The translations under genes were made by a program, and so were the position numbers. A stretch of DNA of 64,000 bases from Hysterangium stoloniferum (lineage: Eukaryota > Basidiomycota > Agaricomycetes > Hysterangiales > Hysterangiaceae): positions 992,001 through 1,056,000 of the forward strand of contig WHVD01000008.1 in the NCBI GenBank assembly GCA_015178975.1, given 5' to 3'. Below are positions 1 to 34,360 of this stretch, piece by piece (within the stretch, counting starts at the first letter, position 1; each line of letters opens with the position of its first letter). The notes beneath the pieces are model-generated. The model searched no databases. It was not told the DNA's origin and saw only the letters and a list, made by a program, of their open reading frames with translations.

Positions 1-738
1 TCAGCTGCACTCACATTCTACATCCCTTCACAATTGCAATACAATATTGCATATGGCCGCTCCCACTTTGGACCCACATGGTGTGAGAGGTATGGTGAAA
101 TACACTCAGAAAATATAGTCAGATGAGCTCCTACTATATTTCCTTTATTATTTCTGTTTTCTCTCTTTTATTATATCTATAATTAGTTTGACGACCTATG
201 TATGCGGTACATCGACTCTTGTGGGCGCACACATGCTAGACTTATGTATTCTAGCGCCCGTAGTTTAGAACTCAGACACTTTTTACACCGCAACCACGAC
301 TTACCCCGACACCTGTTAGTGTCCTGTAAGTTGTGATTGGTGTATCGTCTCGACCGTCACAGATGGGCTTTAGCTACTCACTCAATCTGAGTTTCTAACT
401 GTACCAGTCAAAACTCAATCCTTATCTCAACCCACGTGGACTACATCCACGCTACTCTATTATTCGACTCTCTAACTACTCTACTTGCACTCGAGCAGTT
501 GTCCAGAATTGCACTTAACAGTCGATTCTACTTATTTGTTCTAGCTATCTACCTTACTTTAGATAGCTACTTCTCTCTACCATATTGAACTAAGTAGTCA
601 ATATGCGTTCAGTTTGTATTAGACTTAGACAGTCAATACATTGTGGTATCGTACCTAAACGGTCAATATTCTTCGTATATAGAACGGTTAGAACTTCTAC
701 CACTCTTCACACATGGTATGGGTTTGTACTCAGAAGGT

Positions 739-1491
739 AAGGTATTCCATGTTTACTATACTCTATTGTCATTGCTAACCCCCCATTAGACCATGAGGAG
801 TCTCCTAGGTCATCAATGTCACCATTGTCACCTCATTCTCTTCAAGTGCCCACTACGGCCTCCCCTTATCACACAGTGCCACATCCTGTCGAGCCGCACT
901 CCTACTCAGAGGGTATGTTGTACTTAGCTGACTATTATTTTCTCTCATCACTGAGATGCCAATTAGGCGACACACAGTGTCTTGTGTCACTGCTGTCCTG
1001 TTATCTGTCTCAAAGGCAGCACTCTGGCTTGTATGATCCTCCAATGGAGTCGGATGAATCTGCACCTATTCTCAGCCCATTAAGGATGCATTCACATCTG
1101 CAAGGTGTGTATTTTACTGTTCAGGAAGGCCTTTTCCTTTTTATCATTGAATAATTCACTAGATGAAGTGTTACCCATGTCCTCCTCCTTATCCTATTCC
1201 CCCCAAACGAACCCTACCACCTTGTCGTCTCACTCAATGACCTCTAGTGCGGACCCTCTCGCCCACCATCCTTATTATGGTGACACTTTCCACCATGATG
1301 TTGGCACAGTGTCAGGCTCCCAGCCTCTCCAGTGGAGCTTGCCCTTCACCAGCCCTCTGACAAGACTTCAAGCTGTTGACGAGCCTCAAAATGTAATGCT
1401 CCAGTCTTTTGCGGAAGCTTTCCTGGAATTCATTGGATTCTCGTTGAGCAACCTATGGGTCGGAGGTTGTATTATTTCATATCCTCACTAG
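739..1491 (+). pseudogene. Gene X, copy A (unidentified repeat-borne gene, frameshifted)
   Basis: I do not recognise this protein. It is homologous to a second copy at 8534-10269 on the opposite strand. Exon 1 ends at 1104, an intron with GT-AG ends spans 1105-1162, and exon 2 runs to the stop at 1491. The same intron sits at the same place in the other copy (8990-9045), so this was a real spliced gene. The product is rich in Pro, Ser and His, with a shared block around YDPPMESDES and a C-terminal block AFLEFIGFSLSNL. Against copy B, a one-base deletion near 770 breaks the frame before the conserved NPPLD motif. DNA similarity to copy B extends beyond the ORF, from about 110 to 1536, so X travels as part of a repeat. 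Function unknown. Confidence 0.55.
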
Positions 1492-1616
1492 AGGACCACA
1501 CTAATTGCTATCATCACATTCATTTGGTCCCCATCTCTGTCTAGTTGGTTGAGATCAGTGACAAGAACAAGACATTAAATAGCTCAGTGCAATAGTACCA
1601 TGTAAACATGAACTCA

Positions 1617-2716
1617 TCAATGGTCCAGCTTGCCTCTCCTCACAGTAGTGATCTGTATCATGAGATGATTCACCCTCACATCCAGGCATCGTGCCTCCAC
1701 AAGACTTAGAGGGGTGAATACATTCAATGTGTTTCTTTTGACAATGTTTGCAAGGCCACCTGCAAAAAAGAATAAAGTGTGAATATGGTAATGAAGCAAA
1801 CTGAATGTGGGAACGAACTCAGCATCGCACCAGACCTTTTCGGCATGACAACCAGTGCAGGCCATTTTCACCCTCAAGCCTTGGCCCTTCTCTTTGCGTG
1901 GGTCATCTGTACATTCACCCCTGTATCAATGCAATGCTGACATGGCCATGCCCTCTCACACCTGATATTTTTCTGGTGACAGGGTGCACAACAGAGCTTT
2001 GGACTGGGGAGTGGGGGGAAAATGCATCGAGTGCCACACTCTGAGCAGCGAGAGCAAGGTAATTCGCCATCACATGTAACAGCATCAATTTTGCATGTAG
2101 CACATATTTTGTCAGGGGGTTGAGAGGGGTGGATAGTGGATAGACGGAATGGGGGTACCTGCCCTAGCCTGAGGTTACTGGGGGCGGTGGGGATAGGAGA
2201 GAGATGGAGACATTTTGAGCCAGATTTCGTGCAAGCAGAGCAGGACTGGTTGCCATCGCACCTGTGTGCACATGAGTGTGGATGTAGTATGAAAGATCCA
2301 ATCCAATGGGCAACTCACACTAGCTTCTTCTTCCTACACCCCTCACAATCATTGATGCACATCTGTGCCCTCCCCTTACTTTTGCAGCTGCTACAGGGCC
2401 TTTCTTCGTTGCAATGTGTCTTTTCGTGGCAACAGTTAGTACAGGCCCACAATACGTGGTGATAGGGGATAAGGGCCCTAGGATTTTCCATGGCGATGTG
2501 TGAGAAGAATACTATGAGAGAGAGGGAGCCCAATAAAAAGAAAAATGTGTATATGATGCTTTGTGAGATTCCAATCCATAAATGCCTTGCACCTTGTTTC
2601 ACTTTGTGAGGATGACCCACAGGTCCCATCAGAATTATATAATTTCCAGCTGCAACTTCTTCAAAACTGGATGCCTCATCTGTAGATTCCCCCATTTCAC
2701 TTCCATGCATGCACAC
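1617..2716 (-). pseudogene. Gene Y, copy A: tandem Zn2Cys6 modules (frameshifted)
   Basis: Read on the minus strand, this is a chain of zinc-cluster modules with the spacing C-x2-C-x6-C-x5-C-x2-C-x6/8-C. Module 1 (about 2400-2320) begins CTNC and is complete. Module 2 begins CEGC and is completed across an intron (donor after CTAGT near 2312, acceptor before GTGCGATGG near 2231). Module 3 begins CATC (about 2100-2020). Module 4 begins CAPC. Module 5 begins CTGC (about 1855) and runs into a last intron. A one-base frameshift near 1920 separates module 4 from module 5, so the copy is probably dead. A single Zn2Cys6 module is the DNA-binding domain of Gal4-like fungal regulators; an array of five is not a family I know. 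The N-terminus (MCMHGSEMGESTDEASSFEE) matches copy B at 10862-11870. Confidence 0.6.
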
Positions 2717-2799
2717 TCAACACATGTTACTCTCCCTATTTTAATGTCCTTTTTTTTCATTCTGTTTCCTTAAAAATGTCACAAAAGTGAAAACCTCCA

Positions 2800-3061
2800 G
2801 GCCTGAGCAGGTCAGTCAGATGCTTGTTGAGGAACAAAGACACCACACATATTCCCTTTGTTCTTTTATCACGTGACACATACTTAGTGATTATTTATTT
2901 CATGTATATACAATATGTAGTTCGGTTAGGGCAGAGTTATAGTAACTAACAATGTGTAAACAAACCACAGTAACAATGATAATAGGGGCTACTTTTTAAC
3001 AATGCTCAGATGTGCTGACTGACAGATCATGCCTGATTTTGTTGAAGACTTGGACCAGGCC
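2800..3061. other. Interval without a recognised gene
   Basis: AT-rich sequence between gene Y copy A and the inverted-repeat element. I see no gene or clear repeat here. Confidence 0.5.
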
Positions 3062-3064
3062 TGT

Positions 3065-3750
3065 CACTGGAGGCACCCCAAGATTTTTGGAGTTGCAAAA
3101 CCTTCAGAAAATCTTGCTATTTGGCCAAATTTGCTAAGCATTCTTTGAACTGGAAAAACTGTTCGGAAATCTTGAGTTTTAGTAGGTTTTTCTGAGGACA
3201 AAAATTGTATCTGAAAACCCTAAAAATGTTGATCAGGAAATTCTAAGGAAACATTGTTGGAAATAGCCTATTTTCTGTGGATTTTCTAAATAGGAAAATT
3301 CTTAAAAAACCCTGGGTTTTGTTAGGGTTTTTCCACCCAACAGAATTCTATGAAAACTGTAATAATTTGCCTAGAGAAATCAATTGAAAACCACATATTT
3401 CTACTCAATTTTTCTGCTCAGGGAATTGGGTGAAAACTGTAATTTTTTGCCAGGAAAATCTTGTGCCAAGACAAAGTTTTGTTAATGTTTTGTCAAGGGG
3501 AAAACCATAATGAAATTGACAATTTAATTATATGGGAAATCATTGAATAATTATAGATTTCAATAAGATTTTCCTTGGCCACAAACACTATGGAAATTCA
3601 AAAAATGTGTTGGTGAAATCTTGAAGAAATTAACATTTTCACATGACTTTCTTAAAGGTTTTTCAAGATGAGAAACCTTGAACTGATTTTTCCTGATTGA
3701 GCATGATTCACAATTTTTTGGAATGGTACAGTGGGATTCACAAATATTTA
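3065..3750 (+). repeat. Left unique arm of the fold-back element
   Basis: 686 bp of AT-rich, non-coding sequence that matches the reverse complement of 7581-8266. The only difference found is a CpG/CpA transition at 3165/8166. Confidence 0.9.
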
Positions 3751-5230
3751 AGAGGATTGTTTTAGATTCAGGTAGATTCTTTTAGATTCACATAGATTCA
3801 GATAGATGCTTTTAGATTCACATAGATTCAGATAGATTATTTTGGATTCAGGTAGATTATTTTAGATTCAGGTAGATTCTTGTAGATTCAGATAGATTCT
3901 TTTAGATTCAGATAGATTCTTTTAGATTCAGATAGATTCTTTTAGATTCAGATAGATTCTTTTAGATTCAGATAGATTCTTTTAGATTCAGATAGATTCT
4001 TTTAGATTCAGATAGATTCTTTTGGATTCTTTTGGATTCTTTTAGATTCAGATAGATTTTTTTAGATTCTTTTAGATTCTTTTAGATTCAGATAGATTCT
4101 TTTGGATTCAGATAGATTCTTTTAGATTCAGATAGATTCTTTTACATTCAGATAGATTCTTTTAGATTCAGATAGATTCTTTTAGATTCAGATAGATTTT
4201 TTTAGATTCTTTTAGATTCTTTTAGATTCTTTTAGATTCTTTTAGATTCAGATAGATTCTTTTAGATTCTTTTAGATTCTTTTAGATTCAGATATATTCT
4301 TTTAGATTCAGGTAGATTCTTTTAGATTCAGATAGATTCTTTTGGATTCTTTTGGATTCTTTTAGATTCTTTTAGATTCACATAGAGTATTTTAGATTCT
4401 TGTAGATTCTTTTAGATTCTTTTAGATTCACATAGATTCAGATAGATTCTTTTCAATTCACATAGATTCAGATAGATTATTTTAGATTCAGGTAGATTCT
4501 TGTAGATTCAGATAGATTCTTTTAGATTCAGATAGATTCTCTTAGATTCATATAGATTCAGATAGATTCTTTTAGATTCACATAGATTCTTTTAGATTCA
4601 GGTAGATTCTTTTAGATTCAGGTAGATTCTTTTAGATTCTTTTAGATTCTTTTAGATTCTTTTAGATTCTTTTAGATTCAGGTAGATTCTTTTAGATTCA
4701 GATAGATTCAGATAGATTCTTTTAGATTCTTTTAGATTCACATAGATTCTTTTAGATTCTTTTAGATTCACATATATTCTTTTAGATTCAGGTAGATTCT
4801 TGTAGATTCAGATAGATTCAGATAGATTATTTTAGATTCAGGTAGATTCTTGTAGATTCAGATAGATTCTTTTAGATTCAGATAGATTCTTTTAGATTCA
4901 GATAGATTCTTTTCGATTCAGATAGATTTTTTTAGATTCACATAGATTCTTTTAGATTCAGGTAGATTCTTTTAGATTCACATAGATTCTTTTAGATTCT
5001 TTTAGATTCTTTTAGATTCACATAGATTCAGATAGATTCACATAGATTCACATAGATTCAAATAGATTCAAATAGATTCACATAGATTATTTTGGATTCA
5101 GGTAGATTCTTGTAGATTCAGATAGATTCAGATAGATTCTTTTAGATTCACATAGATTATTTTAGATTCAGGTAGATTCTTGTAGATTCACATAGATTCA
5201 CATAGATTCACATAGATTCAGATATATTCT
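3751..5230 (+). repeat. Decamer minisatellite, left half
   Basis: About 148 tandem 10-bp units of the form AGATTC plus four variable bases, mostly TTTT, AGAT, ACAT, AGGT or TTGT. The 10-bp phase never slips across the whole tract, although unit order varies. TTTT-type and AGAT-type units often alternate, giving a 20-bp higher-order period. Confidence 0.95.
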
Positions 5231-7570
5231 AGAATCTATCTGAATCTATGTGAATCTATCTGAATCTAAAAGAATCTAAAAGAATCTATGTGAATCTATG
5301 TGAATCTAAAAGAATCTACCTGAATCTAAAAGAATCTATGTGAATCTAAAAGAATCTATCTGAATCTATGTGAATCTAAAAGAATCTATCTGAATCGAAA
5401 AGAATCTATCTCAATCTATGTGAATCTAAAAGAATCTATCTGAATCTACAAAAATCTACCTGAATCTAAAATAATCTATCTGAATCTAAAAGAATCTATC
5501 TGAATCTATGTGAATCTAAAGGAATCTATCTGAATCTAAAAGAATCTATCTGAATCCACAAGAATCTACCTGAATCTAAAATAATCTATGTGAATCTAAA
5601 AGAATCTATCTGAATCTATCTGAATCTATCTGAATCTATCTGAATCTACAAGAATCTACCTGAATCTAAAAGAATCTATGTGAATCTATTTGAATCTATT
5701 TGAATCTATGTGAATCTATGTGAATCTATCTGAATCTATGTGAATCTAAAAGAATCTAAAAGAATCTAAAAGAATCTATGTGAATCTAAAAGAATCTACC
5801 TGAATCTAAAAGAATCTATGTGAATCTAAAAAAATCTATCTGAATCGAAAAGAATCTATCTGAATCTAAAAGAATCTATCTGAATCTAAAAGAATCTATC
5901 TGAATCTAAAAGAATCTATCTGAATCTACAAGAATCTACCTGAATCTAAAATAATCTATGTGAATCTAAAAGAATCTATTTGAATCTATGTGAATCTATG
6001 TGAATCTATCTGAATCTAAAAGAATCTAAAAGAATCTATGTGAATCTAAAAGAATCTACCTGAATCTAAAAGAATCTATGTGAATCTAAAAGAATCTATC
6101 TGAATCTAAAAGAATCTATCTGAATCTAAAAGAATCTATCTGAATTTAAAAGAATCTATCTGAATCTAAAAGAATCTATCTGAATCCAAAAGAATCTATC
6201 TGAATTTAAAAGAATCTATCTGAATCTAAAAGAATCTATCTGAATCTAAAAGAATCTATCTGAATCTAAAAGAATCTATCTGAATCTAAAAGAATCTATC
6301 TGAATTTAAAAGAATCTATCTGAATCTAAAAGAATCTATCTGAATCTAAAAGAATCTATCTGAATCCAAAAGAATCTATCTGAATTTAAAAGAATCTATC
6401 TGAATCTAAAAGAATCTATCTGAATCTAAAAGAATCTATCTGAATCCAAAAGAATCTATCTGAATCCAAAAGAATCTACCTGAATCTAAAAGAATCTATC
6501 TGAATCTAAAAGAATCTAAAAGAATCTATCTGAATCTATGTGAATCTAAAAGAATCTAACTGAATCTATCTGAATCTAAAAGAATCTACCTGAATCTAAA
6601 AGAATCTATGTGAATCTAAAAGAATCTATCTGAATCTACAAGAATCTACCTGAATCTAAAATAATCTATCTGAATCTATGTGAATTGAAAAGAATCTATC
6701 TGAATCTATGTGAATCTAAAAGAATCTAAAAGAATCTACAAGAATCTACCTGAATCTAAAAGAATCTATGTGAATCTAAAAGAATCTATCTGAATCTAAA
6801 AGAATCTATCTGAATCTATGTGAATCTAAAGGAATCTATCTGAATCTAAAAGAATCTATCTGAATCTAAAAGAATCTACCTGAATCTAAAAGAATCTATC
6901 TGAATCTAAAAGAATCTATCTGAATCCAAAAGAATCTATCTGAATCCAAAAGAATCTATCTGAATTTAAAAGAATCTATCTGAATCTAAAAGAATCTATC
7001 TGAATCTAAAAGAATCTATCTGAATCTAAAAGAATCTATCTGAATCTAAAAGAATCTATCTGAATCTAAAAGAATCTATCTGAATCCAAAAGAATCTATC
7101 TGAATTTAAAAGAATCTATCTGAATCTAAAAGAATCTATCTGAATCTCAAAGAATCTATCTCAATCCAAAAGAATCTATCTGAATCCAAAAGAATCTATC
7201 TGAATCTAAAAGAATCTATCTGAATCTAAAAGAATCTACCTGAATCTAAAAGAATCTACCTGAATCTAAAAGAATCTATCTGAATCTAAAAGAATCTATC
7301 TGAATCTAAAAGAATCTATCTGAATCTAAAAGAATCTATCTGAATCTAAAAGAATCTATCTGAATCTAAAAGAATCTATCTGAATCTAAAAGAATCTATC
7401 TGAATCTAAAAGAATCTATCTGAATCTAAAAGAATCTATCTGAATCTACAAGAATCTACCTGAATCTAAAATAATCTACCTGAATCCAAAATAATCTATC
7501 TGAATCTATGTGAATCTAAAAGCATCTATCTGAATCTATGTGAATCTAAAAGAATCTACCTGAATCTAAA
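5231..7570 (-). repeat. Decamer minisatellite, right half (inverted)
   Basis: About 234 tandem units of the same decamer on the minus strand (plus-strand form AGAATCTATC / TGAATCTAAA). It starts directly at the palindrome centre ATTCT|AGAAT. The terminal units (7311-7570) mirror the left array's first units (3761-4020) variant by variant; further in, the two halves differ in unit order and number. Units with TTTAAA and CCAAA variants appear here more often than on the left. Confidence 0.95.
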
Positions 7571-8266
7571 ACAATCCTCTTAAATATTTGTGAATCCCAC
7601 TGTACCATTCCAAAAAATTGTGAATCATGCTCAATCAGGAAAAATCAGTTCAAGGTTTCTCATCTTGAAAAACCTTTAAGAAAGTCATGTGAAAATGTTA
7701 ATTTCTTCAAGATTTCACCAACACATTTTTTGAATTTCCATAGTGTTTGTGGCCAAGGAAAATCTTATTGAAATCTATAATTATTCAATGATTTCCCATA
7801 TAATTAAATTGTCAATTTCATTATGGTTTTCCCCTTGACAAAACATTAACAAAACTTTGTCTTGGCACAAGATTTTCCTGGCAAAAAATTACAGTTTTCA
7901 CCCAATTCCCTGAGCAGAAAAATTGAGTAGAAATATGTGGTTTTCAATTGATTTCTCTAGGCAAATTATTACAGTTTTCATAGAATTCTGTTGGGTGGAA
8001 AAACCCTAACAAAACCCAGGGTTTTTTAAGAATTTTCCTATTTAGAAAATCCACAGAAAATAGGCTATTTCCAACAATGTTTCCTTAGAATTTCCTGATC
8101 AACATTTTTAGGGTTTTCAGATACAATTTTTGTCCTCAGAAAAACCTACTAAAACTCAAGATTTCTGAACAGTTTTTCCAGTTCAAAGAATGCTTAGCAA
8201 ATTTGGCCAAATAGCAAGATTTTCTGAAGGTTTTGCAACTCCAAAAATCTTGGGGTGCCTCCAGTG
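7571..8266 (-). repeat. Right unique arm of the fold-back element
   Basis: Reverse complement of the left arm, ending in the CAGTG terminus at 8266 and followed by TGT (8267-8269). Confidence 0.9.
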
Positions 8267-8269
8267 TGT

Positions 8270-8375
8270 CCAGGCTGGTCAGGTGACCTACTTAGACCTG
8301 AACAGGTCATGTGAAACTGAACAGGCTTATCTGTTCAGGCTTGGACAGGTCATGTGAAGCTGCCCAGGCCTGGTG
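8270..8375. repeat. Short direct repeats just outside the fold-back element
   Basis: The string CAGGTCATGTGAA occurs twice, each time preceded by GAACAGG- or GGACAGG-like sequence and followed by CTG. This is a small imperfect tandem duplication. Confidence 0.5.
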
Positions 8376-9314
8376 ATGTCGACTAAATTAAATTAAAAAA
8401 AGGTGGAGTGGTTCAACCCTGACAGAACCATACAACTCCCTCGCCTCTCTCTTATGTTTGTTCTAGCTCTAATTAAATCTTTGATTACTAACTCTCATTG
8501 TAGCGGATGACTGATCTGATTCTAATGATACAATTATACAAATGAAAAACCAAGTCTAAATAAGTATTTTGTCATATCATCCAGGCTACGTGAATGTGAA
8601 TGAAAATGACTTTGGAAAGTGATTGACAGGAAACCAAGGAAACCAAGTACACTGCAGAAAAATGTAGACCAAGTGGACACAACCACAGCAATTAGTGTGA
8701 CTCGGTAGTGAGGATATAAAATAACACAACCTCTAACCCTTAGGTTGCTCAATGAGGATCCAACAAATTCCAGGAAAGCTTCCACAAAGGATGGGAGCAT
8801 TATTTTAGGGCTAGTGAAGGGGAACCTCCCCTGGAGAGGTTGTGAGCCCAACCCTGTGCCAACATCATCATGGAAAGTGTCACATGCATAAAAAGGATGG
8901 CCTGCACTTGAGGTTGTTGAATCACACGACAAGGTGGTAGGGCTCATTTGGGGGGCATGAGATAAGGAGGAACCTGGGTGACACTTCATCTAGTCAATTA
9001 TTCAATGACAAAAGAAAATGGCTTTCTGAAGAGTGAAATACATACCTTGTCCATGAAAATCCATCCCTAATGGGCTGAGACTGCCTGCAGATTCATCTGA
9101 CACCATTGGAGGATCATACCAGCCAGAGTGCCCCCTTTGAGACCCATAGCAGGACACCGGCAACACAGGCTGCTGTCCATCCCCTAATTGGCATCTCAGC
9201 GAGAAAAAATAATAGTCAGCTGAGCACAACATACCCTCTGAGTACAAGCACAGCTCCACAGGACATGGCATTGTGTGATAAAGGGAGGTGGTAGTGGGGA
9301 CTTGAGGAGGATGG

Positions 9315-9899
9315 TGTTACGACCCATTCCCGGATGTTTCAATATCTGACTTCCGGTCTCCCACTCCCGACTTCCGATCCCCGACTTCCGACTTTGACCT
9401 CTGACTACGGAACATCATAGTTACCGTATCATCCGCATGCTTCCCTTGTTCCGCATTTGGTAATTTGTCCGTTGACAAGTATTCACTCGTTTGTTTGTTA
9501 TATTCCTGTTACGGAATATTGCCTTCCTAATATGTCTTATTGTATTTCCGTTTTAAGAACACTTCCGTTTCCGTCTTATTATGGTCTTAGTTTGTAGCAC
9601 AATAACGAGCAGACTTATATTAGTTTCCGCGAATTTGTACTTTACCTTAGATCTGATATCGACTTAGTTTCTTATTCCTTCTCCCGTCTTTCTGTACGCT
9701 CGATATTCGGAACTCTTCGGAACTCTGAATATCCGTAACTCCCATCACAAGTCTCACCTCCGAAATTAAGGACATTGAGCGTTTGTGTAGAGGCGCAGCA
9801 CATAAGCTGAAGCCGACGTCCTGACCCTATCTAGTTGTTCCCGACCTTCCGGTGACTTCCCGATAGTTCCGGAATAAGTTCCCAACACGGCACTTAACA
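9315..9899 (+). mobile_element. Solo LTR, Ty3/gypsy family, TSD GATGG
   Basis: Begins TGTTACGAC and ends ACTTAACA, flanked by perfect 5-bp duplications GATGG at 9310-9314 and 9900-9904. It shares the near-terminal GCGCAGC..CATAAGCTGAAG block with the other LTRs of this window. It inserted into gene X copy B. Confidence 0.9.
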
Positions 9900-10063
9900 G
9901 ATGGGATGACAATGGTGACATGGGGGATCCAGGAGATAACTCGTAGTCTAATGGGGGGTTAGCAGCAACAGGTAGAGTATAGTGAGCATGGAATATCTTG
10001 CCTTTCCCATTCAAACACACATTGCATGGGTCCAAAGTGGGAGCAGCGATAGGTACCATTGTG

Positions 10064-10141
10064 TTGGGATTGTGAAGAGATGTAGAGCACAGGTGAGATA
10101 AATTGGGATTGTGAAGAGATGTAGAGCACAGGTGAGATAAA
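10064..10141. repeat. Perfect 39-bp tandem duplication
   Basis: Two identical 39-bp units (10064-10102 and 10103-10141) in gene X copy B. The length keeps the reading frame. Confidence 0.95.
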
Positions 10142-10861
10142 TTGGGCCATGTCTGGAATACCAGGGATGGGGACCTGGCAGAAGTAGGAGGATTGTGACC
10201 TATTGTGAAGAGTGGTGGAAGTTCTAACCGTTCTATATATGATGAATATCGACCGTTTAGGTGCGACACGATGATGTATTGACTATCTAAGTCTAATACA
10301 GACCAAAGGTATATTGACTGTTTAGTTCAATACGGTCGAGTGAATTAGCTATCTAAAGTAGAATAGAGAGCTAAAACAAATAAAGGAGAGTCGACTGTAA
10401 ATATGATTCTGAATGACTGCTCGAGTATTGAAGAGAATAATGAGAGAGTCAAATAACAGAGTAGCATGGATGTAGTCCACACAGATTGAGATAATGGTTT
10501 GAGTAAGTCTGGTGCATATGCACCCACAAGAGTCAATGTACCAAATGCATAGGCCGTCAAAGTAAATATATGTGTATGATAAAATAGAGAGAAAATATAA
10601 ATAATAATGGAAATATAGTGTGGGCTCTTGTGGACTATATTTCGGAAAATATTTTGCAGTATCTCTCACACCTATTTTGCAGGTCATTATAGAGAATGAA
10701 ACTAATGGGCGGCCTACAATGCACCCTGTGAACTGCTGTTGTGTGAATCAGCATTGGGAGCACAGACAGCTGTGTGATTATGGGGGCTTTGATGGGAATA
10801 GGGGAATAGAGGGGACTCCAGAGGTGTGACTCTGTCTAGTGATCGAGTTCAGTGATGAGAA

Positions 10862-11870
10862 CTATACATTAAATAGCACAGCACAAATAGTACCTTGTAA
10901 GGATGAGCTTTCCCATGCTTTGGTACTCTCCTGATAGTGATGGTGAGTGTCACCAGACAACTCTGCACATGTGCATCCAGGCTCCAGCCCTCGACAAGTC
11001 CTACACTCCTTGACACATTGAATCTTCTTCTTCACACAAGGCTTGCAAGGCCAGCTGTGAAAGGAATAAAGTGTAAATATTCCAACAAAGCAAACTGAAC
11101 ACAAAACCACACTCATCATTGCACTGGGCCTTGGCTGCATGACAACCAGTGCAGGCCCATTTCACATTCTTCTTTTTGTGTGCCTTGTCTACACACTTCT
11201 TCCCCAAATTGATGCAACACCCACATGACTGTGCCCTCTCACACTTGATATTCAGCTTGCCACAGGACATGCAACATGGTTTTTGTCCTGGTCCTAGGGG
11301 AAAAATACACCGAGTGCTGTGCATTGAGCAGCAAGAACAGGGCAATTCGCCATTGCAAACAGTACTGTCATTTTTGCACAACTTGCAGGTATTGTCAATT
11401 AGTTGAAATGGCTTTGGAGGAGGTTGAGAGGGGGAAGAGGAATGCAGGAGGATAGCGGGTTGGCAGGGTGGGATGACAATGTGCTTTGGCTTGACCCTAT
11501 GGGGAACAAGAGGGACATGAGTAAAGAGTGGGAGACTTGTTATGCCATTTTTTGTGCAGGGGGAACAGGGCTGGTTGCCATCACAGCTGTGTACATGTGG
11601 GTGAGTGTGGATGGAGTATGAAACATGGGAGAGTCTCACACTAGTTTCGAGAGAGAGAGAGAGAGGAGAAGGATAGATGGCAGTGAAAAGGATGATGTAC
11701 ATATATACCCCTGCTTGCCAGATTCCGATCCATAAATGCCTTGCACGTTTTTTTGCTTTGCGAGGATGACCCATGGGTCTGACCAGAATTATCTTGTTTC
11801 CAGCTGTAACTTCTTCGAAACTGGATGCCTCATCTGTAGATCCCATTTTGCTTCCATGCATGCACAACAT
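10862..11870 (-). CDS. Gene Y, copy B: poly-Zn2Cys6 protein
   Basis: The model starts at ATG 11870, splices 11055-11112 (58 bp, GT-AG) and stops at 10862, giving 951 nt or 316 residues with the frame kept. Three complete modules C-x2-C-x6-C-x5-C-x2-C-x6-C stand in tandem: C162-C188 (CKLC start), C200-C226 (CMSC start) and C240-C266 (CTGC start). The last is completed only after splicing. A degenerate half module (CDGNQPCSPC, about 96-105) precedes them and a half module CRTC..C..C (270-282) follows. Gal4-type modules bind two zinc ions and usually one per protein contacts DNA; an array suggests another use, or multivalent DNA binding. Compared with copy A, module 1 and half of module 2 are replaced by a CT-rich tract near 11650. 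Whether this copy is expressed cannot be told. Confidence 0.55.
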
Positions 11871-11939
11871 GCTCCTCCACAGCAGCCCATGTTGCAGGGA
11901 CTCCAGGGATCATGCCACTAAAACTTACCTTGCTCAATC

Positions 11940-12190
11940 TAGGACCAATGTTCATTAGACATATTTTCTCCAACATAAAACTTTCAGTTTCATAAGTCAT
12001 TTTCAGCTGGCATGAGTATATATATTTGGTTTATAGAATTTTTTATTTATTTGAAGGGTTGTTGTAGTGACAACACAATGCCCCACTATGCAGCTATCTC
12101 AGATAAAATGGGAAACCAGTGATTAGCCCACAATCAGAAGCATGAAAGATAAAACAATAATGGAGAGGGTAGGATAAACTGTTCATGCAA
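11940..12190. other. Interval without a recognised gene
   Basis: AT-rich stretch between gene Y and the integrase relic. No feature seen. Confidence 0.4.
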
Positions 12191-15117: not shown

Positions 15118-15943
15118 TAATGTATTAGCCTTATTTTAATATTATTTTCTGGAAAAAGGAGTCCAATGCTCTATCAAAGTATGCAAATACTCAATTCACT
15201 ACAAGGTAAAATAATTTAAGTATTTGATATTAATCAGTGGCAGCCTGAATAGACTTAGAACCCCTGAAGTCAAGAGTTTACTTGAATATATACACCCTAC
15301 TTCGCAAAGAAGGTTTTGAGAGCTGCTTGTGCAAGCTTGTTCTTTTTCTGTGATAACAACTACTAAAATAAGAATAACAATTTACTGATTCCAAAGCTAG
15401 ATTTAACTTCAATGCTAGCTAGTTTATATATATTTTATACTATTTATCAAACAGTAAAAATATTTATAAACAGGTCAAAAGATTAGATATAGAATAAAAC
15501 ACTATTTGGTTAATATATGCTTTATTTACACTAACTTATCAGAATCTTAATGTAGTCTTAGGATCTTGCAAGGATATTCTCAGTATTTATTTATGTGAAT
15601 ATGCTTTACTGATTCATAATAAATGAGGAACAGGGATTATTTGTAATGTAATAATCAGAAGTTTTTAGATTACAAATAACAAGAAATGTAACAAGGATTA
15701 TTTGCAATGTGATAATCAGTCAAATTACTCAACAAGAGGTGACTGAAGTCTTAAACTACAAATAACAAGATATGTAACAAGCAGTCAAATTACTCAATAA
15801 GAGGTGACTGTAGTACAAAGGATTAATACCAAAGTACTCAACAAGAGGTGGCAGGGAGTCCTGATTGGTAGAATTACTGTCAAATTACTCAACAAGAGGT
15901 GACAGGGAATCCTAGGTGCCAGATGCTCAACTAAGAGGTGGCA
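15118..15943 (+). repeat. Dispersed repeat R, copy 1
   Basis: Non-coding; matches the reverse complement of 30123-30796 over roughly 650 bp. The right part contains several short direct repeats around ACTCAACAAGAGGTG. The TRIM-like element inserted at its right edge. Confidence 0.75.
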
Positions 15944-23860: not shown

Positions 23861-26108
23861 TGTGAGTACTGCAGGCTATAGGGGTTGCCCTTACAGAACC
23901 CCAAAAAGTTAAAGATATACAATCCTTCCTTGGCTTTGCCAATTTTTACAGACGATTTATCTGTGGATATTCTGACATCACAGTTCCCCTTACCCATCTT
24001 ATGGATAAGGATACTCTGTGGAATTTTAATGATAAGTGTCAAAAAGCTTTCAATCTTTTAAAAAATTCTTTTTCTTCAGCTCCTATTCTGTCACATTGGA
24101 AACCAGACTTCCCACTCATTGTCGAAACAGACACCTCAGACTATGCACTTGGAGCCATTCTGTCTATCCAGGACTCCAATGGAGAAGTCCACCCCATGGC
24201 TTTTCTGTCCTGGACTTTTACCGGAGCAGAGCTCAATTACAATGTTCATGATAAGGAACTCCTGGCAATTTTTTCAGCTTTCAAAACATGGTGACACTAT
24301 TTGGAAGGCTCAGGAACTCCAATTGATGTTGTAACAGATCACAAAAACCTGGAATATTTTTCTACTACCAAGCTTTTGACCTGCCAGCAGGCCCACTGGT
24401 CTGAATACCTATCTGCCTTCAATACGACTATCCATTTTCAACCTGGCCATCTCGGTGGCAAACCCGACACTTTAACTAGACGATGGGACATCTATCCTAA
24501 AGAGGGAAGCAATGACTATGCCACAGTGAACCTGCACAACATGAAACCTATTTTCACAAATCAGCAACTTACCACATCGGTCTGCACAACTTTCCTTGTC
24601 CATCCCATTGTCCATGGAATTATCATTATGGATATTGAGAAGCTACATCAAGATATTCTATCGGCAATTCCACTAGACCCGATTACTAAAGCACACCTTG
24701 ACAATCCCATGGACCCCGATCAACCCTGGTGGTCTCTTGATCAGCATGGTTTCATTAGACTTGACGATCAGATCTATGTACCAGACTCTGACAGCCTCTG
24801 CCTCAGGATCCTTCAGTACAAACATGATCATCCACTCTCAGGACATTTTGGGTACAACAAAACTCTATCATTAATAAGAAGAGAATATACTTGGCCCGGA
24901 CTCCATGGATTCATTAAGCACTATTGTAAATCTTGCACTACTTGTCCCTGCTCGAAATCTCAGCAACACAAGCCATATGGCCTTTTGAAACAACTCCTGG
25001 TACCAGAAAACCCATGGAATTCTATTTCTATGGATTTCATTGAACACCTACTGGACTCTGAAGGCTTTTCTGCCATTCTAGTCATTGTTGACAGATTCTC
25101 AAAACAAGGTATATTCATCCCTACATATGATACATGTCCGTGCAGTTAGCGGAACTTTTTATTATCCACATATTTTCCAAGCATGGAGTTCTGTCCCACA
25201 TAACTTCCAATCGAGGATCAGAGTTTGTGTCTCACTTCTTTAGATCCCTCGGGAAATCCTTGGACATGAAACTACATTTCACGTCTGGACATCACCTGGA
25301 AGGCAACAGACAAACTGAACACATCAATCAGACATTGGAACAATATCTCCGTGTATATTGCAATTATCAACAGGACAATTGGAAATCCCTGTTACCACTT
25401 GCAGAATTTGATTACAACTATGCACCTTTGGCCACTACTGGCATTTCCCTGTTCTTTCCAAATAAAGGGTATAGTCCAAATATTACAGTACACCCAGAAT
25501 GAGATCTCACCTCTGCCCATGCTCAAGAGTATGTCATGGACCTCCATGAGCTCCATGAGGAACTCTGGACTGCAATAATGTCCACCCAAGAGCAATACCA
25601 GCATTCAGCAGACAAAAACTGGATTCCACCACCAAACTTCAAAATTGGTGATCGCATTTTTGTCAAAGCTCGATTCTTCCAGACTACCCATCCATCAAAA
25701 AAGCTTGCTGAAAAATATTTAGGTCCGTTTGCAATTATTGCACAAGTAGGTTCAGTTTCTTGGATCCTATGGCTTCCAGATAGCATGTGCATGGTACACC
25801 TGGTATTTCATGTTTCTATGTTAGAACCTTGTACTGCTAACACTATCCTGGATTGTGTGCAATCTCTGCCTCCTCTGGTCATTATTGATGGAGAACCTGA
25901 GTTTGAAATCTCACAAATTTTAGATTCAAAAATCATCAAGTGTCGACACACTTGTAAACTGCTTTACTTGGTCAAGTGGGCAGGTTATGAGGGCACCGAT
26001 GAAGAAACCTCATGGATTTTGGCCACAGAACTCGGTAATGCCATGGAAATTGTTACTGACTTTCATACAGCTTACCTGCTCAAACCTGGACCACTATTGT
26101 CTCTCTGA
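23861..26108 (+). pseudogene. Ty3/gypsy chromovirus pol: RT tail, RNase H, integrase, chromodomain
   Basis: Plus-strand order: RT connection (VKDIQSFLGFANFYRRF, 23905), RNase H (VETDTSDYALGAILS, 24121; VTDHKNLEYFS), integrase HHCC (HDHPLSGHFGYNKTL.., CKSCTTC), integrase core (SMDFIEHL; TSNRGSEF; EHINQTLEQYLR), C-terminal GPFAIIAQVG and a chromodomain (EISQILDSK .. LYLVKWAGYEGTDEETSW). Lesions: TGA at 24291 where Arg is expected in TWRHYLEG, a frameshift near 25140, TGA at 25501 after HPE, and the second catalytic Asp of the integrase reads Asn. Chromodomains direct such elements to particular chromatin. The element is inactive. Confidence 0.9.
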
Positions 26109-26308
26109 CTGCACTCCGCAGACCCCATGTTACATTTGGACTCATTCTCATTATTCCCTGTTGCCCTATGTCTCTCTTTGCTTTTACAGGTTCTGACATA
26201 TTTTCAAGTCCCTAGGCAGATTTCCCATGGACTTTGATTTTAATGATTTTTCACACTTTACTTTTATTTTCAAAAAAAAAGATTATTATCAAGATTATTT
26301 ATATTTTC

Positions 26309-27266
26309 TCAGTCTACATTTATGGGGCTATGTTTCTGCCGGACCTCAGCCATCTCTTGAGGAAGCTCTGCTACCTCCGCAGGCACCCCATCCTCATCTG
26401 ACCTGGCATCATCGGAATTCCCGGCCTGTGGCTCCTCATATATGTACCTGCCGAACTCCACTAGGAACTTCCAAAACTCTGAGCAGAGCCCATGGAGTTC
26501 ATTCGCCACTACAATTTGAACTTTGTTGCTCTTCCGGAGAAACTCATTCTGGGCCTCTATGCCGTCGGCAATCTGACCCAAAACCTCATCCAACCCGGAA
26601 ATCCCGTCTGACCTGCTGATGTCCCATGCCACGGACCCCATGGGCTGCTCATGTACCAGTGAGCACCTCACTTTGAGGTGCACACATTGGTAGCAGCCCA
26701 GTCCCCACCCAGACTTTCAGTTGCACTCAGTGTTCCGGTCATTACAACTGGAACACTGTGGGTCATTCCGTGTTTGTAGGCAGACTGGTGCTGCCTTTTT
26801 TGCCTTCTATTGCCATGGTTAGTTCCCTGGATGTCCCTTGGACCTGAGACTTACCTTTTGGGGGCTCTCTAGCTCTCCCTCAGACTCTGATTTGACATCT
26901 ACTGCCTTGTGCTGAAAAACCAAGTCAGTTAAAGTCGACACATGAAACAGTGGAACTTACCTTTCCTGTGGCAACCACGACCCTGTCTGCAGCCGCCCAG
27001 GCTTTTTCCACAGCCACCCATGCAGCCTCCTCCTCATCTCTCTTCCTCTGCCTCTCAGCCTCTTCCTCTGCAGCCAATGCCGCCTGGTACTCCCTGTCCA
27101 GGGCCTCCTTGACCTCCCTGGCCTCTTTCCCCGCTTCTTCACATTGTCGGCGCTGTTCCTCTCACTGTGCCAAAATCTGGGCTGCACTGAGAGGTGCCCA
27201 ATATGGAGTGCCCGTGGAGGGCCTGGCGGTCGGCATCAGTCTTCTTGGTGTTGGCTTTGGACCCAT
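26309..27266 (-). pseudogene. Gene Z, copy 1: antisense coiled-coil/Zn2Cys6-like gene in the chromovirus 3' region
   Basis: Three exons on the strand opposite pol: 27266-26961 (102 codons), 26911-26855 (19 codons) and 26806-26309 (166 codons). The introns are 49 and 48 bp with GT-AG ends and the frame closes over 861 nt. Exon 1 encodes a charged coiled-coil-like stretch (ALDREYQAALAAEEEAERQR). Exon 3 carries CSSCNDRNTEC, a spacer of 9 and CYQCVHLKVRC, i.e. C-x2-C-x6-C-x9-C-x2-C-x6-C, a fungal Zn2Cys6 pattern. A helical tail follows, ending QKHSPIN. There are two in-frame TGA codons: one in exon 1 (after AQILAQ) and one inside the cluster spacer (26717-26719). A homologue lies at 32178-34360. 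Role unknown; DNA binding is inference. Confidence 0.6.
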
Positions 27267-28451: not shown

Positions 28452-30051
28452 CAGTAGGCAACAAAACCCTTACAATGATTTGCACTTTTTGAAAGGCATG
28501 GTTATTCCTCCAGAAATAAATTCTGTAAATTGCTGAAAATATTATGTAATATACTTCAACATCATACCTTCCAGAAATGCACAGCCACAAGCCACCATGT
28601 CCTTATTTGGTAAGTCCACATCACACACAAACCAATAGCTCATTGTAAGGGTTTTGTTGCACACTATTTTGAGACTATTATTACAAGAAATTAGTATTTA
28701 GTATGGCCCCCCTTTGCTCTAATCACTGCTGCAAGTCTTCTAGGCATACTCTCAATAAGCTTCTGATACTCCTCCTTTGTAATCTCTTCCCACACCTTCT
28801 GCACCCTCTCCCACAGTACATGAACACTATTTGCAGGCTGTTCATACTCCCCCAGCTTCTTTTTGACATGATTCCACAGATGTTCAATAGGATTCATGTC
28901 AGGAGATTGTGCAGGCCACTTGAGGACTGTAACATCATGGTCAGTGAACCATTTCTGGGCCTTTTGTTGTGTGTTTGAGGTCATTGTCTTGTTGAAACAC
29001 AATGTCAGCCACTGTTTTGTTGTAATATTTGAGGGTTTGCTGGAGTTCATCATGCAGGATCTCCACATAAAGCTCAGCATCCATCCTCCCATCAATTTTG
29101 GTTGCAAAACCAACCCCATCCCAGCCCACACATTCCCACATCATCAGGTTTCCTCCTCCAAACTTGACTGTTCCCTCTACTAACCTATCATTTAACCCCT
29201 CACCCACATTTTTCCACACATATTTCCTTCCATCTGATCCCAGCCTATTAATCTTAGTCTCATCAGACCATATGACCCTCTTCCAGTCCTCCAGGGTCCA
29301 TTCCAAATGCCTTTCTGCAAACTCCAATCGAGATTTCCGATGATGAGGTTTGAGAAGTGGCCTTTTTCTCTTTACCACAGTCCTCATGCCTATGGTTTTG
29401 AGGTGGTGAGGCACTGTTTGTGAAGTCATAGGAGTGTTGATGATGTCTATAAGTTTCTTGGTTGCCTGTGTGGCATTATCAACCTTCCCCATGCAAATTA
29501 TTCTTCTAGCATAGGCAACATTGGCTGTGGTAAGCTTTGTAGGATGGCCACCAGAGCATTTGGGGAGGTCAGGACAATGCTCAGAGCGAATACAACTGAT
29601 GGTGGCACTGCTGAGATGAGTTTGGTAACATATTTGAGCTCCAGAAATGCCAGAGTCAAGTAGAGTAAGAACATGTTGGATTTGGCTGGAGGAGAGCTTT
29701 TTTATTGTGAGTAGGGTGATTGTGGGATTCCAACTGGTTGCTTTCATCTTATATACATTGAGGAAGAGTGGTCACATGACTTTGTTGAACTTTATAAACA
29801 AAGTCATGTGACTAGGACCCATTTTGAACTTTAAAAATGTGTGCAACAAAACCCTTACAATGAGCTATTGGTTTGTGTGTGATGTGGACTTACCAAATAA
29901 GGATGTGGTGCCTTGTGGCTGTGCATTTCTGGGAGGTATGATGTTGAAGTATATTACATAATATTCTTGGCATTTTACAGAATTTACTTCTGGAGGAATA
30001 GCCATGTCGTTCAAAAAGTACAAAACATTGTAAGGGTTTTGTTGCCTACTG
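28452..30051 (-). mobile_element. Tc1/mariner element nested in the LTR, TSD TA
   Basis: 1600 bp, flanked by TA at 28450-28451 and 30052-30053. Inverted repeats of 213 bp (28452-28664 and 29839-30051) start CAGTAGGCAACAAAACCC. Each arm also ends, on its inner side, with the inverse of its own outer 20-mer (CATTGTAAGGGTTTTGTTGC), so each arm looks like a small palindromic unit. The transposase gene lies between the arms. Confidence 0.95.
28691..29747 (-). pseudogene. Tc1/mariner DDE transposase, one frameshift
   Basis: Starts at ATG 29747. N-terminal helix-turn-helix region (SSSQIQHVLTLLDSGISGAQ), then the DDE core: VIWSDETKINR (first Asp), IVFQQDNDLKH (second Asp), then SPDMNPIEHLWNHVKKKL with the third acidic residue, and GGHTKY at the end. 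The length is 1057 nt, one over a multiple of three. The frame changes near 28970 in CACACAACAAAAGGCCC, just after the second Asp. Spacing to the Glu is 33-34 depending on how the run is read, matching the DD34E Tc1 group. The rest is remarkably open, so the frameshift is recent. It cuts and pastes its own element at TA sites when intact. Confidence 0.9.
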
Positions 30052-30796: not shown

Positions 30797-31320
30797 CAGA
30801 CCCCGCTCCTGCTCCATTTCCGGTTATGGTTTATGATTTGTCACAATTCAGACTCTGCTCCGTTCCGTCCCATTCCTAACACCAAATTTGGTGTTTACTA
30901 TTCTTGTTTTATGTTTTGCTAGTTTCATTTCATTATTACTGGATTTGGTATGTTATTTATTCCATGGTCTATATAGTCTGGCAGATGTTGTACATACAAT
31001 CCAGTCAGAAAATCGGCTTAGATTCCCCCCAGTAATCTAATACATTTTCCACTCTAAACTCCTCCTTGAATTACACCACTCTCACTAGTCGGAGCCTATG
31101 GGCTCCGACGCACCTATCTCTCTTATTTATCTCGACTCCCTGACCTCTCAACCTACGCCCCCTCGACCCACGAACCCCGCCCAGACTTCCCAGGATTCCC
31201 ATCCACCTGTCTGAAATTGGACAACACGATCTCGTGAGGGTGCAGCCTATAAGCTGAAGCCAAGTCCTACTGGATTTCCCACAGGTTTCTCTGGAAACCT
31301 GCCATGTACGTACCCTAACA
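30797..31320 (+). mobile_element. 5'-truncated LTR of the second chromovirus
   Basis: Starts inside the LTR at CAGACCCCGCTCC (next to repeat R) and ends TACGTACCCTAACA. It keeps the family block GTGCAGCCTATAAGCTGAAG. It abuts integrase sequence directly, with no primer site, gag or RT between. Confidence 0.8.
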
Positions 31321-31985
31321 CTACTGGCATTTCTCCATTCTTTGCAAATAAAGGGTACAATCCAAATATTACAGTACACCCAGAATAAAATCTCACCTCT
31401 GCCTGTACTCAAGAGTTCATCACAGACCTCCATGAACTCTACAAGGAACTCCAGACTGCAATAAGGTCCACCCAAGAGCAATGTCAGCATTCAGCAGACA
31501 AAAACTGGATTCCACCATCCAACTTCAAAATTGGTGATCGTGTTTTTGTCAAAGCTCAATTCTTCCAGACTACCCATCCATCAAAGAAACTCACTGAAAA
31601 ATATTTAGGTCCATTTGAGCTAATAGCACAGATAGGTTCAGTTTCATGGACCCTACGGCTTCCGGATAGCATACATGCGGTACACCCAGTGTTTCTATGC
31701 TAGAACTGTACTGCTAACACTATCCCAGATTGCATACAATCTCTGCCTCCTCTGGTCATTATTGACAGAGAACCTGAGTTTGAAATCTCACAAATTTTAG
31801 ATTCAAAATAGATAAGCATCAATGCACTTGTAAACTGCTTTACTTGGTCAAGTGGGTGGGTTATGAGGGCACTAACGAAGAGACCTCATGGATTTTGGCC
31901 ATGGAACTCAGTAATGCCATGGAGATTGTTACTGACTTTCACACAGCTTACCCACTCAAACCCAGACCACTATCCTCTCTCTAAC
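31321..31985 (+). pseudogene. Second chromovirus: integrase C-terminus and chromodomain
   Basis: The plus strand opens at the same codons as 25431 onward (TTGISLFF-like), then NWIPPSNFKIGDRVFVKAQF, KKLTEKYLGPFELIAQIGSV, EPEFEISQILDSK and a disrupted chromodomain. Several frame shifts and stops (for example after ILDSK). Upstream gag-pol is missing and the LTR joins directly, so an internal deletion is evident. Confidence 0.8.
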
Positions 31986-32177
31986 CACATTCCACAGACC
32001 CATTGTATACAAGGGATTCACTTCATTTTTCCCTGTCACCCTATGTCTCTCTTTGCTTTTACAGGTTTTCTGACATGTCTTCAAGTCTTAGTGGATCTTC
32101 CCACAGACTTTTACACTTTTTATGTTTTTTTTTTAAATTATTAAACTTTATTGATTGTTTTCTTTCATTCTATTCTT

Positions 32178-34360
32178 TCATTCTACATTTATGGGGCTAT
32201 GCTTCTGCCCACTTTCTTTACCCTCTTTGTGGATTTCCACCACCTCCTTGGGGACCCCATCCTCATCCTCACCAGGCTTCTTGGAACTCCTGATCTGTGG
32301 TTCAACATACACATAACCACCATACTCCACCAAAAACACCCAGAACTCCCCACAGAGGTTCTGGAGCATTTCCACCACGGTCTCCTGCATCTGGTTGCCC
32401 TCTTCAAGCAACTGGTTTTGGGCCTCTATGCCCATGGCTATTGGCCCCAAGACCTCCTCCAAGCCTGCAGGCCTGTCTGAACCACCTGCATCCCATACCA
32501 TGGACCCTGTGGGCTCATGAACCAGTGAGCACCTCGCTTTGAGGTGCACACATAGCCAGCAGCCCAGTCCCTGCCCAGACTTTCAATAACAGTCTGTGTT
32601 CCAGTCATTACAACCAGAGCACTGTGGATCATTCTTCACCTCCAAATGGAGTGGAGCCATTTTCCTTGTTTTCTGCTAAAGTGGTCAGTACCCGGACATT
32701 CCTTGTAGTCCTGCCAGTTACCTTTTGAGGGCTCCCAGCCTCTCCCTTGGACTCAGACTCCACTTTTGCTGCCTTGCACTAGACACCAGAAGTCAGCAAG
32801 GATGACTATGTGAAATATTTGGGACTTACCTTTCCTGTGGCAACTGTGGCTCTCTCTGTGGCTGCTTTGGCTTGTTCTGCAGCTGTCAGGAACTGGAAAA
32901 CCCGCCAGTCTCTGGGCTCCTGGACCCTGTCCTACATGCTCCCGACCCTCTATATTGTATAGTTACAACCAGAGTTCCCACTGGAGCCCACACATTAACT
33001 TATTTATGCCTGACTCTCTGTATGCACCCCACCCTATCTGCCCCCAACTTGACACCTTCTGTTATGATACAGAATCCATTGGATTCCACCCTTTGACATT
33101 TAACTTTGTTATATGTTCTTGGTCATCTCCCAAACCGGACTCTGACTGGACTCCCAGAACCTGCACGTCACCCTATATGCACCAGTTGTTGGACTCCACC
33201 GGACTTGCACCTCAACCTGTCTATATCTGACACTGTCATATACACCAGTCCTCGGACTCTGCTGGACCCAGAAATCAACCTGCTTATATCTGACTCTCTG
33301 TGTCTCATGTACCCATCACCAGACTCTGACTGGACTCCCAGAATCCCTCTAACAGAGCATAGAACCCTGCTCCCATTATAGTCAAACAGTCTGTCATGTG
33401 TTTCATGTACCAGTTGTCAGACTCTACCAGACTCTGACCTCCACCCTATATACACCTGATACTCTATATCTCACAGACCAGTCACTGGACCCCAACCAGA
33501 CTCCCCAGAACCCCTCTGACAGAGCCCCATTCCCATTATGGACTAATGACCTGTCATGTTTTGGACCCCGCTCCTGTTCCATTCCATCCCTAATATGTAC
33601 CTAGTTTGGTATTTACTTGTTTTGTTTTATGTTTAATAGTTCTGCCCCTCATTAATACCAGATTTGGTATTATTACATTTCAAAGTCTATATAAGTCTGC
33701 TACATTCATGTACTTAGAATCCAGTTTGAATCTCAAACAAGTTACACCCCTGATCCAGTCTCTAGTCCTCTTGTCTGTCTGCATGCTCGATTCCCAGAAC
33801 TCCTATGGGAACTCCGGAATTTACATCTTCCTGTATACATTCTGTCAGCTCAAAATATGGACACCTGAATGAGTGTACAAGGGTGCAGCCTATAAGCTGA
33901 AGCCAAGTCCATCTCAGCAGTACCATACCTGTCTGGTAATTATTCTGATATACTGTCTTGTACTAATATCCCTGGAAACTCCCCTGGACTTATTACCTGG
34001 GGACTCCATGGGACATTTCCCAGAAGAAAGCATGTGTTCAGAATAATTACCAGAAACACTCCATGGGACTTCTGTGAGCCTTTGTTTCAGAACTTAATAG
34101 CAGCAACCTGTGCAGCCTCCTCATCTTTCTTCCTGTGCTCTTCAGCCTGTTTCTCCATGACCAATGCTGCCTGGTACTCCCTATCCAAGTCCTCCTCGGC
34201 CTCTTTGGCCTGTTTTTCCACTTCCTCCCTTTGTTGATGCTGCTCATCCCACTGCACCAGGATTTGGGCAACAGTGAGCAGAGCCTGATATGTATAGGGA
34301 GCCTGTGGAGGGCCCAGCACTAGGGATTGGCCTGTGAGGTGTTGGTTTCGGACCCATTGA
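32178..34360 (-). pseudogene. Gene Z, copy 2 (split by an LTR insertion)
   Basis: Same antisense gene as 26309-27266. Exon 1 start MGPKPTP is at about 34356. The coiled-coil part (EEVEKQAKEAEEDLDREYQA) is at 34250-34105. An LTR (32884-34099) interrupts it, and exon 1 ends AEQAKAATERATVATGK at 32883-32832. Exon 2 (ESESKGEAGSPQK) and exon 3 follow with the same intron positions. The cluster reads CSGCNDWNTDC, x9, CWLCVHLKARC, with TGA at the same spacer position (32583-32585). The C-terminal frame (32549-32178) is fully open and ends QKHSPINVE. A frame change near 34320 separates the start from the coiled coil. Confidence 0.6.
32884..34099 (+). mobile_element. LTR inserted in gene Z, TSD GCAGC
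   Basis: Starts TGTCAGGAACTGG and ends AACTTAATA (degenerate forms of TGTTA..TAACA). It is flanked by GCAGC at 32879-32883 and 34100-34104. At 1216 bp it is longer than its relatives; its first half carries several degenerate units around ACCAG..GGACTC. Confidence 0.75.

Follow-up and report, generated by a model that had tools for sequence, protein, structure and literature searches.

In the genome of the fungus Hysterangium stoloniferum (assembly GCA_015178975.1; 111 Mb in 554 contigs), a 64,000-nucleotide stretch of contig WHVD01000008.1 (C533:992001-1056000, called the window here; coordinates given without a contig name refer to it) contains a 5,202-bp element, W, at 3065..8266, most of which consists of two very long inverted repeats. 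A sequence-only reading of the window had described this stretch as a fold-back element. We report that W is a genuine insertion of mobile DNA and one member of a dispersed family whose copies differ widely in length. The family very probably represents a non-autonomous, cut-and-paste fold-back transposon of the CACTA/EnSpm type, a giant palindrome in which the arms have been homogenised in some elements.

Layout of the element

W opens with the 15-mer CACTGGAGGCACCCC (3065..3079, forward strand), closes with its reverse complement (8252..8266, reverse strand), and is flanked on both sides by TGT (3062..3064 and 8267..8269); the element as a whole, these duplications, its centre and the repeat around it are given without a strand. 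The 15-mer has 227 exact copies in the genome, where a reversed control pattern has none, and these two ends are its only exact copies in the window. The left outer arm (3065..3754, forward strand) is 690 bp long and holds no copy of the decamer GATTCNNNTA, while the right outer arm (7577..8266, reverse strand) has the same length and differs from it at one position. Inside the arms, Tandem Repeats Finder reports arrays in opposite orientations with a period of 20 and, on the right side, also of 10: a left array of GATTCNNNTA (3755..5219, forward strand; 123 exact units in the left half) and a right array of the inverted decamer (5231..7576, reverse strand; 201 exact units in the right half). 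The halves meet without a unique loop at the palindrome centre (5221..5240), where GATATATTCT abuts AGAATCTATC about an axis between 5230 and 5231.

When each position p is paired with 11331-p, the earlier description of 956-bp arms, 3065..4020 and 7311..8266, as reverse complements with one mismatch is borne out exactly, the mismatch lying at 3165. This homogenised tract (left side on the forward strand, right side on the reverse strand) includes an array part that pairs at 266/266. Outward of 3065 the pairing collapses, with 1-7 matches in each 20-base step from 2800 to 3059. Inward, the halves had been said to diverge once the 956 bp are passed, and ungapped mismatches do rise, from 1/690 in the arm and 0/266 in the adjoining array to 35/344 (~10%) in the next stretch, but the likeness does not stop at 4020: it continues in weaker form, and blastn aligns 3065-5219 with 8266-6112 at 91.7%.

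The window holds 329 copies of the decamer, where shuffled sequence has 11 on average, and chance is excluded as the source of the arrays and of the arm pairing. The G+C content is 25-32% across the five kilobases 3001-8000 and 41-46% in 1-3000 and 8001-12000. A frame scan of the 5,202 bp found no long open frame, the longest stop-free stretch being 73 aa. Inverted repeats that make up most of the element and enclose tandem repeats are features of the fold-back class; at 5.2 kb, W lies outside the size of a miniature inverted-repeat transposable element (MITE), which is a few hundred bp.

Insertion sites and copies of the family

The two flanks of W, joined with one TGT, were run against the genome and gave 46 rows, two of them W's own flanks. 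Judged by eye, 25 of the 46 span the junction by at least 20 bases on both sides, the best being on C212 (91%) and C234 (89%). Three of these 25 were fetched (C212, C234 and C157), and each of them shows GGCCTGTCCAGG, with just one TGT. Because these paralogous joined-flank copies carry a single TGT, W must have inserted into an older repeat, the parts of which lie at 3002..3061 and 8270..8415 according to the flank search and the alignment with the empty sites. Empty sites, which had been anticipated for related strains, are thus present as paralogues in the genome that carries W.

A genome search with the arm as query, which the sequence-only reading had proposed as a route to other copies, did find them. 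W's 690-bp outer arm gave 511 candidates, and the best 40 of these 511 are all full length at 98-100%, many of them as facing pairs 3.8-7.5 kb apart. Twenty-four regions were fetched; one (L044), consisting of halves of two elements, was set aside, and the addition of W gave a set of 24 full elements (3,238-7,542 bp, median 4,753.5). All 48 ends start with CACTGG. In 21 of the 24 elements both ends carry the complete 15-mer unaltered, and in L033, L049 and L050 one of the two ends departs from it by a single base. Perfect 3-bp target duplications flank every one of the 24 (TGT, TTC, TGT, TCT, AAG, CTT, AAA, CAG, TAA, ACT, CTA, TGA, TAA, AAA, TTA, CAC, CTT, TTT, TTA, TGG, AAA, TTA, TAT and AAG). 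Scattered copies that vary in length and have target duplications are expected of the fold-back class, and the inverted arms, defined ends and target duplications together confirm the initial assignment of W to it.

The joined flanks of the other 23 elements and of four short ones (described below) were compared with the window and the fetched loci. Clean paralogous empty sites, in which the 3-bp word stands once, were found for L038, L042, L046, L047 and L050; those inside the window belong to L038 (24714-25113, 92%), L042 (9698-9899, 87%) and L047 (30351-30773, 93%, and 15139-15542, 92%). Matches for L037, L048, L051, L052 and L058 are weaker or less clean (71-85%) and were left uncounted, and the remaining elements had no empty site among the window and fetched loci. 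L032 sits in a minisatellite of the GACTTTGTG type, where the test is uninformative.

A census was also made from exact ends only, the full reading that includes the 3-bp duplications covering the 24 long elements. The preceding base placed 211 ends and a further pattern placed 10 (221 of 227, six being unplaced). Facing pairs within 25 kb number 69, of which 60 come from the 211 ends and nine were paired by hand: 18 span ~375 bp, one 867 bp, 47 between 1.8 and 8.1 kb, and three more than 10 kb. A 12-kb end pair on C442, bounded by CACTGGAGGCACCCC at both ends, was read in a 2.8-kb sample of its middle (L059, C442:353000-355800), which by eye holds a reverse-transcriptase-like open frame that we take to be DIRS-like.

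Arms, centres and arrays

The 48 arms of the 24 elements were aligned and fall into three groups and two looser relatives. Group C comprises W and its four closest relatives, L031-L034, each with two arms of a type that we call beta, and the arms within these five elements differ at 1, 1, 0, 7 and 3 positions, respectively. The sum over the true pairs, 12, equals the minimum over 100,000 random pairings (P=0.001), and the variants that both arms of an element have and the other 46 arms all lack number 2, 1, 1, 1 and 2. Such element-private shared variants, together with a pairing as tight as the tightest random one, argue for arm-to-arm conversion in group C. In W the homogenised part extends into the array: its 266-bp tract, identical between its own halves, finds its next best partner in any element at 243/266. 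Inverted arms would anneal with each other during replication or gap repair, so that gene conversion would homogenise the arms in some elements, and such conversion would keep both ends usable.

The other elements retain more divergent arms. In group A (L045-L049 and L052-L054; eight elements) each has one alpha and one beta arm, with 37-42 differences between them. Group B (L035-L043; nine elements) has arms of two types that are 16-20 apart, with the exception of L039 (5). The left arm of L039 looks mosaic, with one arm type outside and the other inside, and to judge from its sequence this looks like a partial conversion caught in one element. L050 and L051 are the looser relatives, with arms that differ by 37 and 24. 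Repeat-induced point mutation was considered separately and rejected: the biallelic columns of the 48-arm alignment hold 64 transitions and 70 transversions, and thus no excess of transitions.

The centres of the palindromes, typed by eye, follow the groups. A spacer, CACCCTAAACCATAAAA, occurs in either orientation in 8/8 elements of group A and 8/9 of group B, with one changed base in L039, whereas W, L031, L033 and L034 have a loop-less centre of the GATTCT/AGAATC type; L032, L043 and L051 differ from both. Within 200 bp either side of the centre, mirror matches number 159/200 in W, 188/200 in L034 and 179/200 in L032.

These centres bear on another origin for group C, in which snap-back replication of a broken half-element, folded onto itself, gave a fresh palindrome with arms alike from birth. 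Such an event would account for two beta arms where the related group A has one alpha and one beta, for the lack of the spacer that group A and most of group B have, and for the near mirror-symmetric centres of L034 and L032; moreover, over 600 bp of array, of the six listed rows with the highest ungapped scores, the beta half of the group-A element L046 gives the best gapped match outside W (89-91%). A new palindrome, however, is expected to be at least as symmetric at its centre as at its ends, and W has one mismatch in its outer 956 bp but only 159/200 matches at the centre. For this reason conversion of its outer ends accounts better for W, and a fresh-palindrome origin is disfavoured for it, while either reading may apply to L032 and L034. 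It also speaks against such an origin that one centre type is common to four of the five group C elements, which suggests that a single event founded them and that they were then homogenised separately. For the group as a whole we judge fresh palindromes to be a minority possibility, rather unlikely but deserving of weight. The sequence-only reading had offered recent formation or ongoing gene conversion as the cause of such similar arms; conversion gains support from the private variants and the pairing test, and the case for recent formation is weaker for W, given that its centre type recurs in three other insertions and that its centre is the less symmetric part.

Arrays and arms appear to change at different rates. 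L035 and L036 have no differences in either arm and are 5,406 and 7,542 bp long, and L037, with one difference per arm, is 4,120 bp long; since arms so nearly identical accompany such unequal lengths, the arrays turn over far faster than the arms, assembly permitting. Some elements also carry cargo. L047, L048 and L049 share an insert of 817-836 bp, starting with TGTTAGG, ending with GTAACA and flanked by ATCTG repeats, which by these features is like a solo long terminal repeat, and L046 carries a related insert. Because L046-L049 lie in four places with four different target duplications, their movement probably postdates the gain of the insert.

Short relatives sharing the ends

A MITE of about 376 bp (range 364-377 bp), under one tenth the size of W, has the same ends. 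In a search with one copy, L056, the best 40 of 448 candidates comprise 41 full-length places (80-100%) and one partial. Three copies were read (L055, L056 and L058); each is almost its own reverse complement, is bounded by 3-bp duplications and lacks decamers. L055 and L056 match the outermost 127-128 bp of the L047 and W arms at 83-86%. Duplications of 3 bp flank all four short elements, the fourth being L057 (C431:553979-554845), an 867-bp element that has the same ends and the 3-bp duplication ATT, and whose long interior, possibly captured sequence, does not resemble the MITE.

Since a decamer-free MITE has the ends of W, the decamer arrays seem dispensable for movement, and the comparison suggests that the family does not need them to move. 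A CACTA transposase acting in trans would recognise the terminal ~15 to ~100 bp, and the arrays would be passengers that change fast and can be dispensed with; they may be subterminal repeats that have expanded grossly. The same short and divergent copies bear on the proposal that double-stranded RNA is the purpose of the element, with hairpin transcripts feeding RNA silencing of its own family. The shape of W in itself speaks for such a role, but to judge from the MITE and the copies with divergent arms, the family seems able to spread without perfect arms, and we consider the proposal improbable.

Superfamily and transposase

EnSpm/CACTA elements are described in two accounts as having CAC..GTG ends and 3-bp duplications (PMC12730594, PMC8978399). 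The elements of the 24-member set all start with an inverted CAC/CACT, and 3-bp duplications flank 24/24 full and 4/4 short elements; these CACTG ends and 3-bp duplications are the basis for placing the family in CACTA/EnSpm. The subterminal repeats of CACTA elements, several hundred bases long, may have a counterpart in the mirrored decamer arrays, although these start only after ~690 bp and the MITE has none.

A fold-back of some other superfamily, whether Mutator-like (as Drosophila FB), P-like (as Galileo), PIF/Harbinger or Plavaka, is very unlikely. Mutator-like fold-backs produce target duplications of ~9 bp, and the mark of PIF/Harbinger is the 3-bp duplication TWA; here the duplications are of 3 bp and not 8-10, the empty sites agree on 3 bp, and TWA fits only 5 of the 24 (TAA or TTA). 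Plavaka transposases are abundant in the genome (68 rows with PF18759, some of them in open frames of 719-722 aa), which could be taken to favour that superfamily. The termini described for Plavaka are TGT..ACA or CATCA..TGATG (PMC12730594), and those of the present family are CACTG..CAGTG. Most described fold-backs do seem to be Mutator-related (PMC4079207), but the 3-bp duplications stand apart from that pattern. Finally, although long inverted repeats are a known form of artefact, an origin of the palindromes in assembly, library or chimeric fold-back reads has practically no probability left, as 24 of 24 dispersed copies have matching 3-bp duplications and six elements have empty sites, neither of which artefacts would produce.

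Several observations tell against a CACTA/EnSpm-type fold-back with homogenised arms and have to be set beside the evidence for it. Autonomous members of CACTA/EnSpm encode a Transposase_21-type transposase. In favour of the reading, Tnp2-type transposase genes are present in the genome, as judged from sequence matches: a PF02992 profile gives 12 rows, and a Tnp2 fragment (L060), which matches Transposase_21 at 2.8e-20, gives 16 rows as a protein query. A partner of the family would be marked by terminal letters that start CACTGGAGGCAC. However, none of the 12 PF02992 rows lies within 40 kb of placed ends, the nearest being ~44 kb away (C76); none of the 16 rows of the L060 fragment was linked to an end in a comparison by eye that included the later-placed ends; and none of the 68 Plavaka rows is tied to ends, three lying 17-21 kb from one. 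With no transposase row tied to its ends, these searches of the genome with PF02992, PF18759 and the Tnp2 fragment did not find an autonomous partner for the family. A search for TET/JBP (PF12851) had no match, and as its control was silent as well, the result is not evidence of absence.

With regard to the arms, conversion is not universal, as the eight group-A elements with arms 37-42 apart attest. There is no homogenisation in group B, in which the arms differ by 5-20/690 and pairing within elements is worse than random (P(<=observed)=0.99). Clear half-to-half matching beyond the 690-bp arm is seen in W only; the array halves of L031-L034 are not clearly each other's best match, and so the part in which these elements are alike ends near the arm. 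The groups were set after viewing the data, the 24 elements were drawn from the 40 sequences most like W's arm and are biased to W's relatives, and the array lengths rest on the assembly alone.

Surroundings in the window

The flanks of W are paralogous to each other (413-1509 with 8687-10504, and 1535-2715 with 10830-11866), the inverted copies being 77-82% and the direct ones 67-86% alike, and W therefore sits in a duplicated, rearranged region. Further along, 24295-26105 contains pieces of a Gypsy-like polyprotein (an H2C2 integrase, a Tf2-1-like SH3 and a chromodomain just under the cut-off), and in this Gypsy-like region a stretch at 25433-26768 is repeated at 31319-32634 (79% alike). A fragment of a Tc1/Tc3-like transposase (PF01498) lies on the reverse strand at 28944-29771. 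Rfam, at gathering score, and ARAGORN gave no match anywhere in the 64-kb window.

Discussion

Fold-backs have been named from animals and plants and seem for the most part to be relatives of Mutator, and the same source cites the idea that separate lineages have each given rise to fold-backs on their own (PMC4079207). Such independent origins would gain support from a CACTA-type family of which one fungal genome holds tens of complete copies. We found no fungal or CACTA-type fold-back among the papers listed in a survey of titles and abstract openings that covered few subscription journals. The sequence-only reading had likewise known of no named fungal element with this layout, and to that extent it stands, but the layout itself is not without precedent. 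Since divergent-arm, mosaic and homogenised copies occur side by side with empty sites, the copy set lets both inverted-arm conversion and array turnover be measured. It may be, though we put this forward tentatively and at somewhat less than even chance, that the family is a CACTA fold-back lineage in a fungus which renews its own ends by arm conversion while its arrays expand and contract by kilobases between copies that still have identical arms. Palindromes of this kind might, in addition, be places where DNA rearranges and give rise to double-stranded RNA.

Among known systems, the FB elements of Drosophila melanogaster have long inverted repeats in which short tandem repeats, some with a 10-bp unit, form a part, and are Mutator-related with 9-bp duplications. 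By this description they resemble W in having inverted repeats with short tandem units, including those of 10 bp. Galileo, a fold-back-like element of Drosophila buzzatii, belongs to the P superfamily and differs from the present family in this respect, and also in that here a MITE suggests movement without the repeats.

CACTA/EnSpm elements, as outlined in three sources, have subterminal repeats of several hundred bases and mirrored zones of tandem repeats (PMC8978399, PMC12730594, PMC1636069). W is like them in its CAC..GTG ends and 3-bp duplications, and its mirrored tandem-repeat zones may correspond to theirs; it is unlike them in that it has no transposase and that its repeats span kilobases and meet in the middle, making the whole element palindromic. 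The plan of W also matches that of known fold-backs such as Tetris of Drosophila virilis, and its layout therefore has precedents. Tetris has an outer flanking domain of up to 866 bp, variable tandem repeats and long inverted repeats; it is given as having no coding capacity and no autonomous copy found, and its ends are common to a short MITE, DAIBAM (PMC4079207). The same account reports 8-10 bp duplications, a unit of ~220 bp, inner and middle domains, and three complete copies (PMC4079207). On this evidence the family of W, like Tetris, combines a flanking domain with tandem repeats in long inverted repeats, is non-coding and has a MITE partner, and, unlike Tetris, it has 3-bp duplications, CACTG ends, a 10-bp unit, almost no loop, and tens of complete copies.

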